Positions 8,373 through 59,048 of a DNA stretch of 64,000 nucleotides are shown here, piece after piece. Below the pieces are notes generated by a model. The model saw only the letters and a program-made list of their open reading frames with translations. It was not told the DNA's origin and searched no databases. The position numbers were made by a program, and so were the translations under genes. Position 1 is the first letter of the stretch; the number at the start of each line of letters is the position of its first letter. The stretch covers positions 372,001-436,000 of the forward strand of contig NZ_AP031572.1 of assembly GCF_040436315.1 (NCBI RefSeq). The letters are read 5' to 3'. This DNA is from Synechocystis sp. LKSZ1 (GTDB lineage: Bacteria > Cyanobacteriota > Cyanobacteriia > Cyanobacteriales > Microcystaceae).

Positions 8373-11300
8373 ATGAATAATCATGGATATGGATTGTATC
8401 AAATTCCATCAGAGGGTGGTAATTTTCTTGATACAGCTTGGGTCAAAGGGCCAACCGATAATTCATTCACCCACTTGGCGTACACAGTAGAGACAACTCA
8501 CAGAAAAAATAATGTGTTAGCTAGAAGAAGCATTAATTTTAATGAGTTAATGCCCAATAGCTATATGAAAGATAATTTCCCTAAACTCTTGGAAAGACTA
8601 AAAGAGCAAAAAACTTACCAAGTTGGTGAAAATGTCATCACAGACGAGGGAATAAAAACCGAGGATCAAATTAGTACAATTCTAAGGCTTGGAGCCCTAG
8701 AACTTTTGGCAAATATCCATTCCGGTCGTATTACAGCCAGTGACAAAGATCCGTTTCCTCATCAACTTGCTCTTCAGCAATATGTCAAAAACAACGAATC
8801 GAGAGTCAAACGAATTTTGATAGCAGATGAAGTTGGCTTAGGAAAAACCATTGAGGTTGGATTGATTTTAAGAGACAGGATGATCTCACAGTCTAACGAC
8901 TTCCGTTGTTTGTATCTGACACCAGGAGGCTTAAAAGAAGATGTAAAAGAAAAACTTTCCAGTGTTATCAAAAGCCCTGAAGGCAATGAGATCATCAAAG
9001 TTATTGACTCCTTTAAAGATTACGGACGAAATATTTCAACCAACGGAATTTGTATAGCTAGTATTGATGCGGCTAAGCGATACTTAAAGTCCAAAGATAA
9101 AGCAAAGTTACAAGCCAGAGTAAGACCCAATATTCTAATTATTGATGAGTGCCATCACTGTAGCAGTAGCTCTGACTTAAGAGGAAAGGAGCCCAAAGAT
9201 ATTGCATGTAAGAAATCAACACAAGCTTACAAAGCGGCGCTTCAAATCATTACAGGGGAGTATTGGACTGACTCAGAGCCTCCTGAATTAGTCATTTTAA
9301 TGAGTGCAACACCATTTCGCTCTGAATCTCAATTCACAAATTTGTTGCGTTTACTCGCCCATCAAACGGTTGTTGACGATGCTTTCAGCAAGGAGATGGA
9401 CAAAGAAGAACTCCTAAAAGTGATCAAACAAGAGGATTCACCTGTCACTATTATTTGGAGGCAACAAGATGAAATCCATAGTTGGACAAGCAATAAGCTA
9501 TTCCCAAAATTAACCATTCGCAGACCCCACTCTGATGAAAACGTCCCACCTCTTGCCAAAGTTGATGAAGATTATTTGCATAGCCTCAGAAAAATAAAAA
9601 TAGCTATTCGGGATATTTATGCAAAACACAGCGAGAATTTTGGAGGATTTTCAACTGCTCATTTAGAAACCGTCTTAACTAGTAGTTCTTTGGCGGGAGC
9701 TTGTTGGATATTTCGCTGGTGTGTTCGTCACCATCCAGGTTGGCAAAATGATACTGTGTATCGTGCTGATACGTCTGAAGAAACGGAAAAACTCAGGGAG
9801 CTAATTAGAGAAATTTCTAAAAAGATGGCATCTTTTGATGAAAACAGAGAATTGGAATATGCAAAAGAAGTGAAATTTCCTTCAGATAGCAATTTCACTT
9901 TTGAATCATCACATTTAAAGGGCACAATCCCTAAAATTCGTGAGTTTCATCGAGAGCTTCGTAATCAAGACGAAGAAGATCCTTTTATTGCAGATGCTTA
10001 CGAAATTGTAGAGCTAGCAGACTTGGCACTTAATCTTTTACGTTCCAACGGAATTGTTGAGAATGCCAAAATTGATTGGCTAAAACAGATGCTTAAGGAA
10101 TATCCTGACTCTCGCTTTTTAGTTTTTACCGAATCTTTGCAAACGACGGCAGTGATCACGGCGACATTTCAAAAAGAAAGCCTGGCTCTTGTCGGCAGTA
10201 TGAGTCAATCCGAAAGACAAGAAGCCGTAAGGAAGTTTTATGATACAAGAAAAAAATATCGCATTCTGGTGGCTACTTCTGCCGCAGATGAAGGATTAGA
10301 CTTTCAAATTGCCAACAAGGTTGTTCATTGGGATTTAAGCCCTGATCCTTCTGTTTTAATGCAAAGAAATGGTCGAGTTGCACGTCTAGGTCAAATCTCT
10401 GATGTTACGGCGTATTATTTGATTTTAGAAGGAACGTTAGCTCACACAAGAGATAGCACTTTACTTACACGATTAAAAAGTGCAGGAATAACTGATCCTA
10501 AACTCATAGAAAAAATCTATGGGAGAGTTTTACCAGAGCTTGAAAAAATCGAACTGGAAGAAATTGAAGAAGGCACAATTGATGAGATCATCAGGAAAGC
10601 AAAAGAAATTAATGACTTTATGGAGCACCAATTTCGTGAACTACGAGAAGAACAGCTAAATGCCGAGTTTGTTGTTGGACGAGATGAACTCATGAAGCGT
10701 CTTAAAAATTGGATGAGGTTAGATTATTCAAAATATGATCTCTACAAACATCAAATTCAATTTGAAACAAGAGAATGGCAACGTCCTATCTTTACAGAGA
10801 ACGGCACAAGCTCAGAAAATTATCAATCAGAAATCTTAAGTATTGCTTCTACACGAGGGGTTGAAGAAAGATATATTGTTGATAAACAGAAGTCAAAGTC
10901 TCCTAAAAAGTTCATTTTTGACCAGGAGTTTGGTTTGTTTGGTCAAGAAAAAAATATTGATGGTTTAGCAGGATTACTCCCCTGGGACGTTCCATCGCAA
11001 GACTTAGAACTAAGACGCTATCAATCCAATCGTTCTAAGGATTACCTTGGAAGTCTTTGTGAGACACTTGCTCGTCAAAGGAATGCAGATTTTGCAGTTA
11101 TAGCCCGAAGCAGTCTCTGCGAGAAATTCAGTTATCTTTCCGATGCTAAATTTTTACTATTTTCAACTCATCCTTTGAGAGAGCTTGAGAGCCTTGATTG
11201 TAGCAATGTCGCCAAATATCTTACTTATTATGCATTTGCAGATGACTTTAATCAACCAATTAATTTTCCTGGTGCATCAGCAACTCAAGTTCATGAAATG

Positions 11301-51159: not shown

Positions 51160-53652
51160 CTAGGGTTGAATTTGACGAAGAATAGTCTGGTCGGTGATCT
51201 TCCTATCTTCAGCCAGAAGAAAAGCTTTACTTAAAATAACCGCTAGGGTTTTATCTCCTTCAAAGGGCAGAAAAATGGGTTCGCTCCCCCCGCCCCGCTC
51301 TGGTGCTTTGACAATGCAAAGATATTGATCGCTGGGTTCCATCAGGATGTTGCCGCTACCCAAATGAATTTTATAGGTACGCAAGTCCCCCCGAACCACC
51401 AGAAAACGCTCTTGGAAGGAACAACGGTCACGAATCTTTTTCAGGCGGGGAATCAAGGCCTCTAGCACTTGACGCCGGGTTTGGGCCGTGGCGGACAACT
51501 CCCCAAAGGAATAGTCGTGCCAATAGACTTGATGACGACCTTCCGGGCCCCCATCGGCCCAGTTGGGGTCATTCCCCACGCTAGCCACTCCCACAAACAA
51601 ATCCACATCCCGCAGGACTTCCGACAACACCAGGGCCGGAATTACTGTAAGGGGGAGGGGGTCAAAGGGGGTTTGCCGAAATATACCGTAGCCCCCACCG
51701 GCCGCATGGGCATAGTTTTCTGGGGCCTCGATAGGATAAAAACGGACTTGGTCGGTAGTCAGATAGAGAAAGGTACCCGAGTCATTGGTGTCACTGCCGT
51801 ACTGGTCGCCAATGCCTTCAATCCAGAATTCAGCCCGTAAATTCCATTGCGGTAAAATCAGACAGGCGGGAGGATAGTCGTCGTCCACCAGCAGGCGCAG
51901 TTTATTTTTCCAGCCCTGCTGGGCACAGAGGGCATTGAATTGGTGTTGTTTGAGGATGTGGGCCGCAAAGCGATTGGAATAAACGCGGGTGGTTTCCTCC
52001 GCTGGGGTAAGAAGATAAATTTCTCGATGGGCCTGTTTAAAGGGCTGTTGAATTTGCCGTTCCATTAACCAACTACGCCAGGCCTGAATCATCTCCGGGC
52101 TTGCATTGATGGGGTGCCACAGGGTGACCTTTGTTTCAGCGGTTAACCAGGGAATAACTTCCCCGGCTCGGTCTCGTAGGGCCCCGTCGTACCAAATTCC
52201 CACAGCATGGTTTTCTCCTAGTTCCAATTGCCATAGGAGTCGCCGGGCCAGACAGCCCATGAGGGGGTGATCGAGGTAGCGTTCCTGCCAGGTCGCGAAA
52301 TCCCAGGCCCTGGGTTGTTGGTAGAGAGCCTCTAGGCGCTGGGCCTGGGCCGGCAACATTTTTTGAATATCTTTTTCGGCCTGTTTTAAGGCCTTCAGTT
52401 CGTCGGCATATTCAGTCTTAACGGCCTGGGGAACGGATTTTTGCGGTTTACCAGCGGCATTCCGCCAACTCAGTGTGGTACTGTGAGTTCCCGTGACCAC
52501 CAGTTCCGCCGTAAAATCTCCGAAGGTTTCCCGCCGCCGTCCGACTTCTGTCAGGCCATAGGTGGGAACCGACAATTCTTCAATTTCTTCTCGGGAAATA
52601 CCCGCCCGGTTGGCCGTTTCTACAAAGGCTTTTTCGATGCCCTTTTGGGCCGTCCCAAATTTAACACGCACCTTGAGCAGGGCCAGTTGGGCCATGGCCT
52701 CGGCGGTCGGCATCTGGCTCAAGGCCCAGATACAGGCATTGCCTAATTTGACACAGCGGGGGCCAATCTGGGGAACTTTGCGGTAGGCCGAAATCGCCAG
52801 AGAACTCAAGGCCCGAGCGAGGCTTGCATCTTCCAGGTCGGCACAGAGCCACACCAAGGCCCGTAGGATCTCCGCATTTTGATCGGCGATCAGATCAACC
52901 ATGCCTCGCCAATCTACCAAGGGCTTTGTCCGTGGCCGATCCACTGGGGGAAACCAGCTTAATAGGGCCTGTTTAAACGACTCAAGGCCAATACTGTCTC
53001 GATAGCCTTGGGCCATTTTGAGCCATTTAGCACTGGGTTTACTGCCAGAAAGCGTTGCACTGCTTTTTAGGAGGGCCCGCCACGGTTCAGCCTGGGCATC
53101 GGATAGCGTTGCGAGAAACAATAGAGCCTGGTCGGCCCAGGGTTCCCCTGCTAGAAGGGGATATCTATCAGCCTTGTCTGGCAATAATTGACGGAGTTTG
53201 GCCGCCGATTTTCGTTGAGAGGCCCCCAGGCCCTCTAGGCGTTGGCAAACCGTTTCAACAGTAGCGCTGAGTTCAGGGGTGATAGGATGTTCCTTGAGAT
53301 AATGGCCGATGAGGTGGGGAAGTCGCTCCGTCCCAGCAGCATAAAGGAGGTACTGCTCGTTTTCCATAGCCTTGAGCAGTTCGAGAATTTCCGCTAAAGA
53401 CAAGGGTAATTTTTGCTTGAGCAACTGAAATAGGGCGTTAACAATCACCCAAATTTTATGCTGGTGGACTCCCTGGCCATTGGCTTGATACCAACGTAAA
53501 AGGGCCAGGGCCATTTGGGCTTGCTCTGGAGGGTCAAGATGACTAAAAAACTCTACGGGGGACAAGCCCGGCTGAAGAAAGGCTAGATTATTTTCGCGCA
53601 GAAGGGTAGCGATCATTTCTTGACAGAAATCATCTGTTAAGGAGCCAGCCAT
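51160..53652 (-). CDS. DUF4132-like large protein, 830 aa
   Basis: A large soluble protein of unknown function. The N-terminal ~400 residues are Leu/Ala-rich helical repeats. The part from about 430 carries the DUF4132/MolR-family hallmarks as I recognise them: YLDHPLMGCLARRLLWQLEL, WHPINASPEMIQAWRSWLME and QIQQPFKQAHREIYLLTPAE, followed by SNRFAAHILKQHQFNALCAQ. The C-terminal ~180 residues are beta-rich (LRAEFWIEGIGDQYGSDTND). No signal peptide. It begins two bases after the stop of a 135-residue gene, and the ribosome-binding GGAGG for it overlaps that gene's last codons, so the two are translationally coupled. The longest frame fits this start. Confidence 0.8.
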   Translation of the reverse strand: MAGSLTDDFCQEMIATLLRENNLAFLQPGLSPVEFFSHLDPPEQAQMALALLRWYQANGQGVHQHKIWVIVNALFQLLKQKLPLSLAEILELLKAMENEQYLLYAAGTERLPHLIGHYLKEHPITPELSATVETVCQRLEGLGASQRKSAAKLRQLLPDKADRYPLLAGEPWADQALLFLATLSDAQAEPWRALLKSSATLSGSKPSAKWLKMAQGYRDSIGLESFKQALLSWFPPVDRPRTKPLVDWRGMVDLIADQNAEILRALVWLCADLEDASLARALSSLAISAYRKVPQIGPRCVKLGNACIWALSQMPTAEAMAQLALLKVRVKFGTAQKGIEKAFVETANRAGISREEIEELSVPTYGLTEVGRRRETFGDFTAELVVTGTHSTTLSWRNAAGKPQKSVPQAVKTEYADELKALKQAEKDIQKMLPAQAQRLEALYQQPRAWDFATWQERYLDHPLMGCLARRLLWQLELGENHAVGIWYDGALRDRAGEVIPWLTAETKVTLWHPINASPEMIQAWRSWLMERQIQQPFKQAHREIYLLTPAEETTRVYSNRFAAHILKQHQFNALCAQQGWKNKLRLLVDDDYPPACLILPQWNLRAEFWIEGIGDQYGSDTNDSGTFLYLTTDQVRFYPIEAPENYAHAAGGGYGIFRQTPFDPLPLTVIPALVLSEVLRDVDLFVGVASVGNDPNWADGGPEGRHQVYWHDYSFGELSATAQTRRQVLEALIPRLKKIRDRCSFQERFLVVRGDLRTYKIHLGSGNILMEPSDQYLCIVKAPERGGGSEPIFLPFEGDKTLAVILSKAFLLAEDRKITDQTILRQIQP

Positions 53653-53654
53653 GG

Positions 53655-54062
53655 TTAACCTCCGACCAAGGGCACTAATTTTAGAAAGGTGACGGTTGTT
53701 TCTGGGGTAATGGTAATTTCATCCTCGAGTTCCGTGAGTTGCTCTTCGCCAACCAGAATCAGAAAGCCATTATTTTCAAAGGCTTGTAAGGCCTTAGAAA
53801 ATTGTTGCTCCCAATCCAACTGCCGGGGTTGACGGAGGCGATAACCATTGAGACTGCGTTCTGTGTCCGTGGGCTGTACCAGTCCCTTAAAATAGTCTGG
53901 TTGGCGAGTATTAAAATCCTTCACTTCTTGGTAAACCCGACTCCGAATTACTTCTCGAACTGTAATGCACTCAGTCAAAAAATCTAAAACGAAACAGGAC
54001 TCTTGCTTGGAGTTTTCAAGGTCAAGAGTATTGGCATCCTGGATTTTTAAGCTGTTTCCCAT
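53655..54062 (-). CDS. Small protein with ubiquitin-like C-terminal third ending in Gly-Gly
   Basis: A 135-residue acidic protein that I do not recognise. Residues ~20-50 read as strand then helix (ESCFVLDFLTECITVREVIR). The C-terminal 37 residues (from GFLILVGEEQLTELEDEITI to TVTFLKLVPLVGG) resemble the last strands of ubiquitin (residues 41-76): hydrophobic LI, a Gly, Gln-Leu, an Asp-hydrophobic turn, T-T/V, then alternating strand to Gly134-Gly135. The final two codons GGA GGT form part of the GGAGG ribosome-binding site of the DUF4132-like gene two bases downstream, so translation constraints could explain the Gly-Gly. Function is unknown; the beta-grasp reading is inference. Confidence 0.7.
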   Translation of the reverse strand: MGNSLKIQDANTLDLENSKQESCFVLDFLTECITVREVIRSRVYQEVKDFNTRQPDYFKGLVQPTDTERSLNGYRLRQPRQLDWEQQFSKALQAFENNGFLILVGEEQLTELEDEITITPETTVTFLKLVPLVGG

Positions 54063-54166: not shown

Positions 54167-54691
54167 TTAGATATCAAAGTAGTAACGCACAGAACCCGTC
54201 TCTGGATCGTTGCCCACATGGACAATCCCCTTCTTCATGGCCTCCCGTAACAGAGTTTCCACTTCACTGGCTTCTAGGCCGGTAATAAGTATGGCTTGAG
54301 CCAGGGACAACACTCCTTGTTGCTGGGCCGCTCCTTCAATCAAACGATGTAGGGCACTCTTTTCTGGTTGTTTAGGGGTTTGCAGGGTACTCTGCAGTTT
54401 CTGGTCAAGACGGTCAATTTTCTCCAGTACTTGATGACTTAGATGGAGCGGGCCGTACCCACTGTCCTGGGGCAGAAACATGCGGAAGTCTCGATTACGG
54501 GACTGTACCATGCCGGGGATGAGAAACAGGTCAAGGAATTGGCCCACGAAACACAGGCCACCGCTAAAAAACCAGAGAATGCCGGTGATGGGTTTGCCGA
54601 GATAGAAACGATGAATGCCGCAAAAACCAAAACAGCCGCAGGCCCAGAGCAGATAGGCAATGGCCATGTTTTTTTCGGTGGGAGGAGTCAT
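54167..54691 (-). CDS. TM2-domain membrane protein, 174 aa
   Basis: The N-terminal ~65 residues form the TM2 domain: two membrane helices around the conserved turn AIAYLLWACGCFGFCGIHRF, YLGKPITGILWFFSGGLCFVG and FLDLFLIPGMV. The remaining ~100 residues are a soluble helical tail (LHRLIEGAAQQQGVLSLAQA, VETLLREAMKKGIVHVGND) that looks like a small winged-helix or scaffold domain. TM2 domains occur widely without a clear common function. The gene sits between mutS2 and the small ubiquitin-like gene on the same strand. Confidence 0.85.
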   Translation of the reverse strand: MTPPTEKNMAIAYLLWACGCFGFCGIHRFYLGKPITGILWFFSGGLCFVGQFLDLFLIPGMVQSRNRDFRMFLPQDSGYGPLHLSHQVLEKIDRLDQKLQSTLQTPKQPEKSALHRLIEGAAQQQGVLSLAQAILITGLEASEVETLLREAMKKGIVHVGNDPETGSVRYYFDI

Positions 54692-58025: not shown

Positions 58026-59048
58026 TCAACAATTTACCACTAACTCTCTTAGCCAGTGTACATAACTTATTTTTTCACACATAAATGCCTGTAAATACCG
58101 TAGCTTATCTAATAAAGATTCCCCAAACTCTTTCGGAATTCTTACCAATCTCAACATTAAATATCCAATCAGGCAACTATAAATCTGAATCTCTATTCCG
58201 TTTGTATTTTTAGTGATTAGCCTGTCCAACTTTAAGTGCATTTTTAAGAACTTCCATAATAGTTCTATTTGCCAACGCAATCGATAAAACTCAGCTATCT
58301 CTTCATTACTTATTCCTCCCTCTCCCTCTTCTGGTAAATTTGTTGCCAACCTAAACTCTGTTCTTTCTTCTCTATCACTAAATACTACTACTCTTCCTTC
58401 TAGCTTTTCCTTCCCACTTCCTATTTCATACTTTCCATTTTCCAGCATATTTAAGCTTATATTGTTCTTTGTTCTTAACACAAAGTAACGCTCTTTCTCT
58501 TCTTGCAGTTTTGCTATTCTTGCTAGACTACAAAATCCTCTATCCATTATCCCAACTCCATTCTCTGGCGTTGCTTCTATCGTTTCATTCCCATATTTAC
58601 TATCATGCCCTTGACCAAAATTAATTACTATTCCTCCTGGGGCTCCTGTGTCTAAATTAATCCCACTAAATAGTTTTACCTGATGATGTCCTTGTCTCCA
58701 TAATAATTTGCTCGTTAACGATATCACTGTTGAGTCCAGTGGAAACAAAACCAGTTCCCTTTTTTCTGGTTCTCGAGAGACTTCTACTTCTTTTTTTAGC
58801 TTTTTTAATATTTCTTTAAAAACCTTTGGGTTTCGCTTTTTACTTGCTTTTGAGAAGGTCGATATATCTACTGACTCTCCTCTCGCGTTTAATCTCTTGA
58901 ATTGACTTCTCATGCTTGTTTGGCTTTGGTCTAGCACGAAACTTAGCCAAATTGAGACAAACTTAAAGGTGTCCAGTTCTGGATAATCCTTTTTGGGCAA
59001 GTGACCCAGATGCTTTTGCACAACTTGAGGAAAGTTTGATATAATCAT
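58026..59048 (-). CDS. IS4-family transposase
   Basis: A 340-residue DDE transposase. The N-terminal region (PQVVQKHLGHLPKKDYPELD) is a DNA-binding part. The first catalytic Asp is in VLFPLDSTVISLTS, the second in GVGIMDRGFCS, and the Glu in the IS4 signature YRLRWQIELLWKFLKMHLKL (Y-2-R-3-E-6-K). All key residues are intact and there is no frameshift, so it could be active. It is the only gene of the element at 57959-59134. Confidence 0.92.
   Translation of the reverse strand: MIISNFPQVVQKHLGHLPKKDYPELDTFKFVSIWLSFVLDQSQTSMRSQFKRLNARGESVDISTFSKASKKRNPKVFKEILKKLKKEVEVSREPEKRELVLFPLDSTVISLTSKLLWRQGHHQVKLFSGINLDTGAPGGIVINFGQGHDSKYGNETIEATPENGVGIMDRGFCSLARIAKLQEEKERYFVLRTKNNISLNMLENGKYEIGSGKEKLEGRVVVFSDREERTEFRLATNLPEEGEGGISNEEIAEFYRLRWQIELLWKFLKMHLKLDRLITKNTNGIEIQIYSCLIGYLMLRLVRIPKEFGESLLDKLRYLQAFMCEKISYVHWLRELVVNC

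Follow-up and report, generated by a model that had tools for sequence, protein, structure and literature searches.

Small beta-grasp proteins of the MoaD, ThiS and Urm1 type carry a tail that ends in Gly-Gly and work with the partners MoaE, ThiG and Ncs6, respectively, and ubiquitin-like (Ubl) proteins or Ubl-like chemistry at a C-terminal glycine are likewise found in the Bil and CBASS Cap2 systems, which carry their own E1-type genes. Prokaryotic Ubl operons are described in the accessible parts of two sources as carrying an E1 of their own and often E2 and JAB genes as well (PMC1779556; PMC7159879). In Thermus the Ubl protein TtuB is activated at its C-terminal glycine by the E1 TtuC, which also serves MoaD and ThiS, and TtuB additionally becomes attached to proteins (PMC3980101, partial text). 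Here we analyse a gene pair in a 64,000-nucleotide stretch of the cyanobacterium Synechocystis sp. LKSZ1 (contig NZ_AP031572.1, positions 372,001 to 436,000), hereafter called the window, to which all coordinates refer unless a locus record (L number) is named; the genome is a single contig of 3.67 Mb. On the minus strand, the gene of a 135-residue protein (53655..54062, stop included) lies directly upstream of the gene of an 830-residue protein (51160..53652) consisting of a helical-repeat N-terminus, a DUF4132 and a DUF7737 domain.

Our data suggest that this pair points to an undescribed ubiquitin-like system in bacteria, the computed parts of this reading being the fold of the small protein, its Gly-Gly tail, the partnership with the large protein, the co-occurrence of the domains and a lone conserved cysteine. 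Beta-grasp fold, tail and terminal Gly-Gly are shared with MoaD, ThiS and Urm1, and SAMP1 of the archaeal SAMPs is among the fold matches. Unlike MoaD, ThiS and Urm1, the small protein is longer, shows no Pfam match to these families (among the 25 of 31 families listed) and has a DUF4132-DUF7737 protein as its partner. It differs from TtuB and the SAMPs by additional helices that follow the first helix and precede the third strand, and from the Thermus TtuB/TtuC system and the SAMPs by coming with a large partner that contains a conserved cysteine. In contrast to the Ubl-E1-E2-JAB clusters, Bil and CBASS Cap2, no E1, E2 or JAB family is present among the listed neighbour families of the small protein, so that its conjugation is something we infer.

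The small protein has a predicted beta-grasp fold

The sequence-only reading of this locus had proposed a beta-grasp protein from the pattern of the last residues, and structure prediction agrees with this. AlphaFold2, given the window protein and 68 homologues, returned a model with a predicted local distance difference test score (pLDDT) of 83.5 and a predicted template modelling score (pTM) of 0.78, with MoaD, SAMP1, ubiquitin, ISG15 and Urm1 as best structural matches. The modelled elements are strands at residues 3-11 and 22-28, helices at 35-53, 66-71 and 84-96 and strands at 100-104, 107-109, 115-117 and 123-128, i.e. the beta-grasp topology of two strands, a helix and further strands. 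The last strand is followed by the C-terminal tail LVPLVGG (residues 129-135; 53658..53678, minus strand), which is predicted to be floppy over residues 131-135 (mean pLDDT 59); the protein ends TTVTFLKLVPLVGG, followed by a TAA stop.

Foldseek found nothing in the PDB at E 0.001 or better for this model, and its near-top rows with a probability of 0.95-0.99 comprise 1wgk, which we take to be Urm1, MoaD subunits and SAMP1; staphylococcal superantigen-like proteins, which contain a beta-grasp domain, rank likewise high. In VIA-align 2 the top match is the human MoaD subunit 5mpo_B (Z 8.8, root-mean-square deviation 3.0, 79 aligned residues), followed at Z 7.3-8.4 by chains of the U11 small nuclear ribonucleoprotein, a ubiquitin-fold protein, mycobacterial MoaD, ubiquitin (chains up to Z 7.6), SAMP1 (Z 7.4), ISG15 and Urm1. 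A Z of about 8 may reflect a common arrangement of elements, yet the list consists mostly of a single fold class, and on the strength of the model we regard the MoaD/ubiquitin beta-grasp fold as nearly certain.

Sequence searches gave no such assignment. Pfam returned no family for the window protein at E up to 10, NCBIfam a single match far under its cut-off (E 0.045), and a PDB search with the small-protein profile no relatives; no MoaD, ThiS or Urm1 family is present among the best 25 of 31 Pfam families matched by 69 members at E up to 1. Membership in a known Pfam, NCBIfam, PHROGs or PADLOC family was rejected, all matches being weak and scattered. Leu129, Leu132, Gly134 and Gly135 are invariant in 69 aligned sequences including the window's, in a set partly selected on this end. 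This alignment leaves out 12 of 80 loci of the species scan described below, namely the fragments L046, L074, L084-L086 and L116 and six loci resembling rows that were kept (L045, L058, L059, L062, L063 and L072).

The family is widespread and patchy

Searched at the protein level, 35 of 98 related genomes had a match at E up to 1, of which eight were counted (E 6.7e-7 or better), comprising the window's own protein and seven strong homologues; the others, at E 0.0013 or worse, were regarded as chance matches. Among plasmid records, members were found in Deinococcus (4), Bacteroides (1) and Nonomuraea (1), and all five of these six copies that were opened lie directly upstream of a long DUF4132-family frame, annotated so in four. 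A scan of one genome per species, using one peptide pattern that contains the Gly-Gly end and is biased towards it and another without the tail, found 92 relatives, of which 80 were kept, many being metagenome assemblies. By record titles, the relatives belong to at least eight phyla, i.e. Cyanobacteriota, Chloroflexota, Armatimonadota, Planctomycetota, Deinococcota, Actinomycetota, Pseudomonadota and Bacteroidota.

Profile searches showed the small protein in 59 of 293 genomes of the Streptomyces order, Streptomycetales, with Gly-Gly not being required, and in 8 of the 296 genomes searched in the phylum to which a Saprospiraceae genome belongs. At most 14 candidates were scored per Streptomycetales genome, so misses are possible in this order. 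In the window's own phylum the distribution is patchy, 386 genomes yielding five strong matches and a single borderline one. Searching 50,697 phage records with one homologue gave no match. The Ktedonospora genome of locus L089 (G446) contains three different copies of the small protein, all ending PLVGG (L144, L152 and L155).

The small protein goes with DUF7737 proteins

Both the layout given by the sequence-only reading, with the small gene stopping two bases before the ATG (53652) of an 830-residue DUF4132-like gene, and the proposed partnership of the two products stand. In the large protein, Pfam assigns DUF4132 (PF13569) to residues 401-581 (51910..52452, minus strand; E 7.5e-49, 166.5 bits against a cut-off of 27) and DUF7737 (PF24879) to residues 723-828 (51169..51486, minus strand; E 8.3e-40, 135.4 bits, cut-off 27), and the AlphaFold2 model of this protein has a pLDDT of 87.4. 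Residues of about 1-360 (52573..53652, minus strand) form HEAT/ARM-like helical repeats according to predicted secondary structure and VIA-align, resembling Integrator, CAND1, importins, TOG and proteins like these at Z 8 to 10.9, a level common for helical repeats; these matches fill the VIA-align list, which thus says nothing on the fold of the DUF4132-DUF7737 part. In the PDB, the sequence relatives of the large protein do not go beyond chance level.

Across 92 loci, with at least one place counted twice (L006 and L049), a gene matching the partner profiles adjoins the small gene in 81, lying downstream or on the other strand. Two of the remaining loci are cut by contig ends and nine showed no partner directly beside in this test; among these nine, L005 has a 1,037-residue DUF4132 frame close downstream, L118 has the partner after a 363-residue gene and L094 had only 851 bases of room. 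Among the loci collected, no fusion of Ubl and DUF4132 is seen, the long open frames with a Ubl showing it only at their end. A scan of up to two genes on each side of 80 loci, covering 205 of 223 proteins, reveals no conserved third gene, as the listed neighbour families are mixed and the commonest occurs in 7 of 125 proteins.

DUF4132 is present in 9 of the 98 related genomes, eight of them being the genomes with the Ubl gene, and the ninth (G079) has neither Ubl nor DUF7737. In the Streptomyces order it occurs in 177 of 293 genomes, including 55 of the 59 Ubl genomes (Fisher p 6e-10, kinship ignored). The Ubl thus accompanies some DUF4132 proteins and not others. In unpaired DUF4132 proteins, i.e. 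eight from Streptomycetales, E. coli YehI (MolR) and the one of the cyanobacterial G079, similarity to the partners is lost before the DUF7737 region, so that these ten have no Cys779 (see below); the stretches fetched contain no Ubl gene either. The DUF4132 core is common to both groups: His513, Pro537, Gln540, Arg543, Glu552, Arg561 and Trp581 are kept in all ten unpaired proteins and Gln536 in nine, whereas Glu544 is kept in none and Arg681 in one of the six aligned there.

The prediction that DUF7737 tracks the Ubl was recorded before the search. DUF7737 was found in exactly the same 8 of 98 relatives as the small protein, in none of 14 control genomes and above cut-off in 59 of 293 genomes of the Streptomyces order, of which 55 have the Ubl (Fisher p 1e-49, again ignoring kinship). 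Four Streptomycetales genomes have DUF7737 with no Ubl found (G782, G1030, G944 and G822). These data make it highly probable that the small protein physically partners the DUF7737 protein. Three genomes (G754, G758 and G774) in which neither Ubl nor DUF7737 was found have at least ten DUF4132 matches each, several of them clustered on a single contig, and point to another, expanded DUF4132 branch.

The chain usually stops at Gly-Gly independently of the partner's ribosome-binding site

Among the 105 stop-to-stop frames of at least 100 codons in the window, the small gene alone encodes a protein ending in Gly-Gly. All seven strong homologues in the related genomes end PLVGG directly before the stop. 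The tail-free pattern matched 24 loci, 23 of them with a complete C-terminus, of which 20 end in GG and three in GGYF, and the pattern containing GG without a stop showed the chain stopping at Gly-Gly in 69 of 71 matches, the other two being GGYF. Of 30 Streptomycetales loci fetched after the profile search, 29 end in GG and one in GS.

The sequence-only reading had pointed out that the Gly-Gly codons GGA GGT (53658-53663), which are the last six coding bases, lie where the ribosome-binding site of the next gene is expected, and this overlap is real in the window. The Gly-Gly could hence be merely that site of the partner gene read as protein. Two sets of observations contradict this. The Gly-Gly is retained where the partner gene does not follow, namely in all seven loci where the small gene follows DUF4132 on the same strand (L195-L201), in three with DUF4132 on the other strand (L093, L106 and L108) and in four whose stretch contains no DUF4132 (L002/L240, L204, L205 and L206). 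Moreover, all 16 Gly-Gly codon pairs occur among 87 GG-ending loci, a set partly found with the GG-containing pattern, and GGAGG is present in only 30 of them. For both reasons the Gly-Gly is not an artefact of the partner gene's ribosome-binding site; as a general explanation this is refuted, and we assign it a vanishingly small probability.

Cys779 of the partner is associated with the free glycine end

The large protein has a sole conserved cysteine, Cys779, located inside DUF7737 within the motif YLCIV (codon 51316..51318, minus strand). In an alignment of 49 partner proteins of the scan loci and the window's, 48 of the 50 rows have Cys in this column, the next most cysteine-rich column reaching 20 of 50, and the two rows without it are partners of GGYF proteins. 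Counting distinct DUF7737 sequences, with identical ones counted once and those of fewer than 80 residues left out, partners of GG-ending proteins have Cys at 779 in 73 of 73 cases and partners of GxYW, GRLW or GGYF proteins have Ser, Asn or Ala in 8 of 8. Twelve further DUF7737 loci have no Ubl gene in the stretch. Ten of them show Cys, and eight of these ten belong to genomes with a Ubl gene at another place; the two others, with Pro and Tyr, come from genomes in which no Ubl was found (G782 and G1030). A tree of 87 partners, built with a quick maximum-likelihood method and containing many rows of unlike letter make-up, groups the eight non-GG rows in one clade and the Pro/Tyr pair in another, both beside or inside GG/Cys lineages, suggesting that Cys779 may have been lost jointly with the free end in the one and jointly with the Ubl in the other.

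From these sequence patterns, we give chemistry of the tail at Cys779 about an even chance. Cys779 could alternatively be the nucleophile of a Ubl-specific protease, acting as a deconjugase or tail trimmer and not as a transferase, for which a single conserved Cys accompanied by the near-invariant His763, sixteen residues before it and kept in 48 of 50 partners, would be suited, and GGYF-ending proteins would need trimming. It is, however, these very proteins that have Cys-less partners, and the Gly-Gly-ending forms are already mature and need no trimming, making the protease improbable.

Discussion

In the reading we favour, the pair constitutes a two-protein Ubl system in which the glycine is activated and acted on at Cys779; as a whole, this reading is evenly poised. 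The terminal glycine would be adenylated, most probably by a shared cellular E1 of MoeB type that carries a rhodanese domain, for which TtuC of Thermus, one E1 for several Ubls, provides a precedent (PMC3980101, partial text). The sequence-only reading had asked for E1-like, JAB-like or ThiF genes in such genomes. Two ThiF-family proteins, a 392-residue ThiF+rhodanese protein and a 274-residue ThiF protein, are above cut-off in the window genome and are E1 candidates, and the listed neighbour families include neither E1 nor JAB. The activated Ubl would then be handed to Cys779 of DUF7737 or be acted on by this residue, in the simplest form as a Ubl~Cys thioester, with the helical repeats holding a protein target and DUF4132-DUF7737 serving as a one-protein transferase. 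Conjugation of the small protein to other proteins is a tentative proposal to which we give rather less than an even chance. Still more doubtful, though possible, is the full extension of it, according to which DUF4132-DUF7737 would be a new class of Ubl transferase forming a thioester on Cys779 and transferring the Ubl to repeat-held targets within a stress pathway common to cyanobacteria, Streptomyces, Deinococcus and others; to our knowledge, DUF4132-DUF7737 has no recognisable sequence relation to E1, E2, HECT or RING.

The same fold matches and E1 candidates are compatible with a sulfur carrier, in which the glycine would be converted to a thiocarboxylate as in MoaD, ThiS and Urm1 and DUF4132-DUF7737 would use the sulfur, Cys779 acting via a persulfide or an acyl-disulfide. 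ThiF+rhodanese proteins, of which the window genome has one, feed sulfur to MoaD/Urm1 proteins. MoaD and SAMP1 are among the closest fold matches, a catalytic Cys would fit, and a single E1 serves several sulfur-carrier Ubls in PMC3980101. On the other hand, no sulfur-metabolism family is prominent among the listed neighbour families, DUF4132 has no evident substrate of the small-molecule or RNA kind, and the helical-repeat N-terminus would rather suggest a protein target; we regard the sulfur carrier as unlikely.

Several observations weigh against a system built on activation of the glycine. The Gly-Gly end is not universal in the family: a Bacteroidota clade, joined by one Parabeggiatoa, ends in G[S/A/T/R][Y/L]W or GGYF, the copy on the Bacteroides finegoldii plasmid ends in GRLW, and in the phylum of the Saprospiraceae genome three copies end in GG, five in G[S/A/T]YW, two from one genome in GGYF, and one is cut. 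The conserved terminal Gly-Gly of the sequence-only reading, whose refuting test was the loss of Gly-Gly in homologues that share no ribosome-binding site with the partner, thus holds in most lineages, where it is kept without such a shared site, and fails in this clade and in the one Streptomycetales protein ending in GS. The latter (L174/L232) has a Cys-bearing partner, and G944, with an intact partner, and G822, with a truncated one, keep the Cys with no Ubl detected. Conversely, the Ubl is found without DUF7737 above cut-off in G787, G809, G934 and G966 and without DUF4132 in G845, G934, G966 and G1000; of these, G934 and G1000 contain in-frame stops, and the match in G966 is partial. The pairing of Cys with GG rests on few events in the tree, no E1, E2, JAB or protease is present among the 25 most frequent neighbour families listed, where single cases may be missed, and we know of no reported conjugate. 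The Bacteroidota clade, finally, keeps the pair with neither the free GG nor the Cys, which shows that the partnership does not depend on that chemistry there.

This last point fits a docking subunit, whose tail would insert into DUF7737 and regulate or complete the enzyme without being activated, the glycines fitting a narrow channel by Cys779. The clade with G[S/A/T/R][Y/L]W or GGYF tails lacks Cys779 as well, the GS end co-occurs with Cys, and a dedicated activating enzyme is absent among the listed neighbour families, all of which speaks for such a subunit. Against it, chains outside the Bacteroidota clade end precisely at Gly-Gly with hardly an exception (69 of 71 matches of the GG pattern), and the absence of Cys779 coincides with that of the free end in one clade and with that of the Ubl in a second one. 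We consider docking unlikely.

The pair occurs in Deinococcus radiodurans as DR_A0165 (SEP068184) and DRA0166 (L037), which belong to the same family and show the same two-gene arrangement. According to the accessible part of PMC8533742, drA0165-drA0166 putatively form one operon with a DdrO motif listed at -83, are strongly upregulated on DdrO depletion, and mitomycin induction of DRA0166, the large protein, is IrrE-dependent. We see the listed motif about 83 bases upstream of the small gene in L037; PMC9650054, available in part, states this motif to be absent in D. radiodurans. Two further Deinococcus records (L040 and L041) show similar DdrO-type palindromes in front of the pair. The same part of PMC9650054 reports that the small protein is raised by radiation and hydrogen peroxide, that its deletion mutant survives hydrogen peroxide better and that the small protein binds thioredoxin Trx1, the product of the gene upstream of the pair; in 2022 it likened the structure of the Deinococcus member to MoaD/SAMP1, naming several of the same structures. 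In L037, a thioredoxin gene annotated trxC (8439-8867) lies directly upstream of the pair. Since the D. radiodurans pair is under DNA-damage control, the favoured two-protein Ubl system would likely act in stress-induced modification of proteins.

The relatives found here occur in at least eight phyla. In word searches, 'ubiquitin', 'glycine' and 'DUF4132' are absent from the text of PMC9650054 and 'ubiquitin' and 'DUF7737' from that of PMC8533742. The text of PMC1779556 contains none of DUF4132, MolR, YehI and DRA0165, Deinococcus radiodurans appearing only in the species list of a figure, and the passages of PMC7159879 consulted do not mention the pair. The literature searched, with subscription papers mostly outside the search, contained three papers with the term DUF4132, none that combines it with ubiquitin-like and none with DUF7737.

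Some further features adjoin these loci. In the window, a TM2-domain protein gene (Pfam; 54167-54691, same strand) lies just upstream of the small gene, and a 340-residue open reading frame at 58026-59048 is presumably transposase-like. A long partner form of about 1,600 residues (L037 9402-14282) shows DUF5724 over most of its length before DUF4132-DUF7737. In Bradyrhizobium manausense the 363-residue protein encoded after the small gene and before DUF4132 (L118 9171-10259) has no Pfam match, and on the Bacteroides finegoldii plasmid a rhomboid protease gene (L038 7167-8921) ends 7 bases before the GRLW-ending small gene.

Bacterial Ubl conjugation is known from operons with their own E1, often with E2 and JAB, or, in Thermus and in archaea, with one shared E1. 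A Ubl family that spans eight or more phyla and keeps to a single partner, with a cysteine in that partner that is missing along with the free glycine end, would represent a simpler and so far unrecognised layout, and two domains of unknown function (DUF4132 and DUF7737) would for the first time have a role that can be tested. As a non-pathogenic, radiation-resistant model organism has both genes under known DNA-damage control, a direct experiment on this role is possible.

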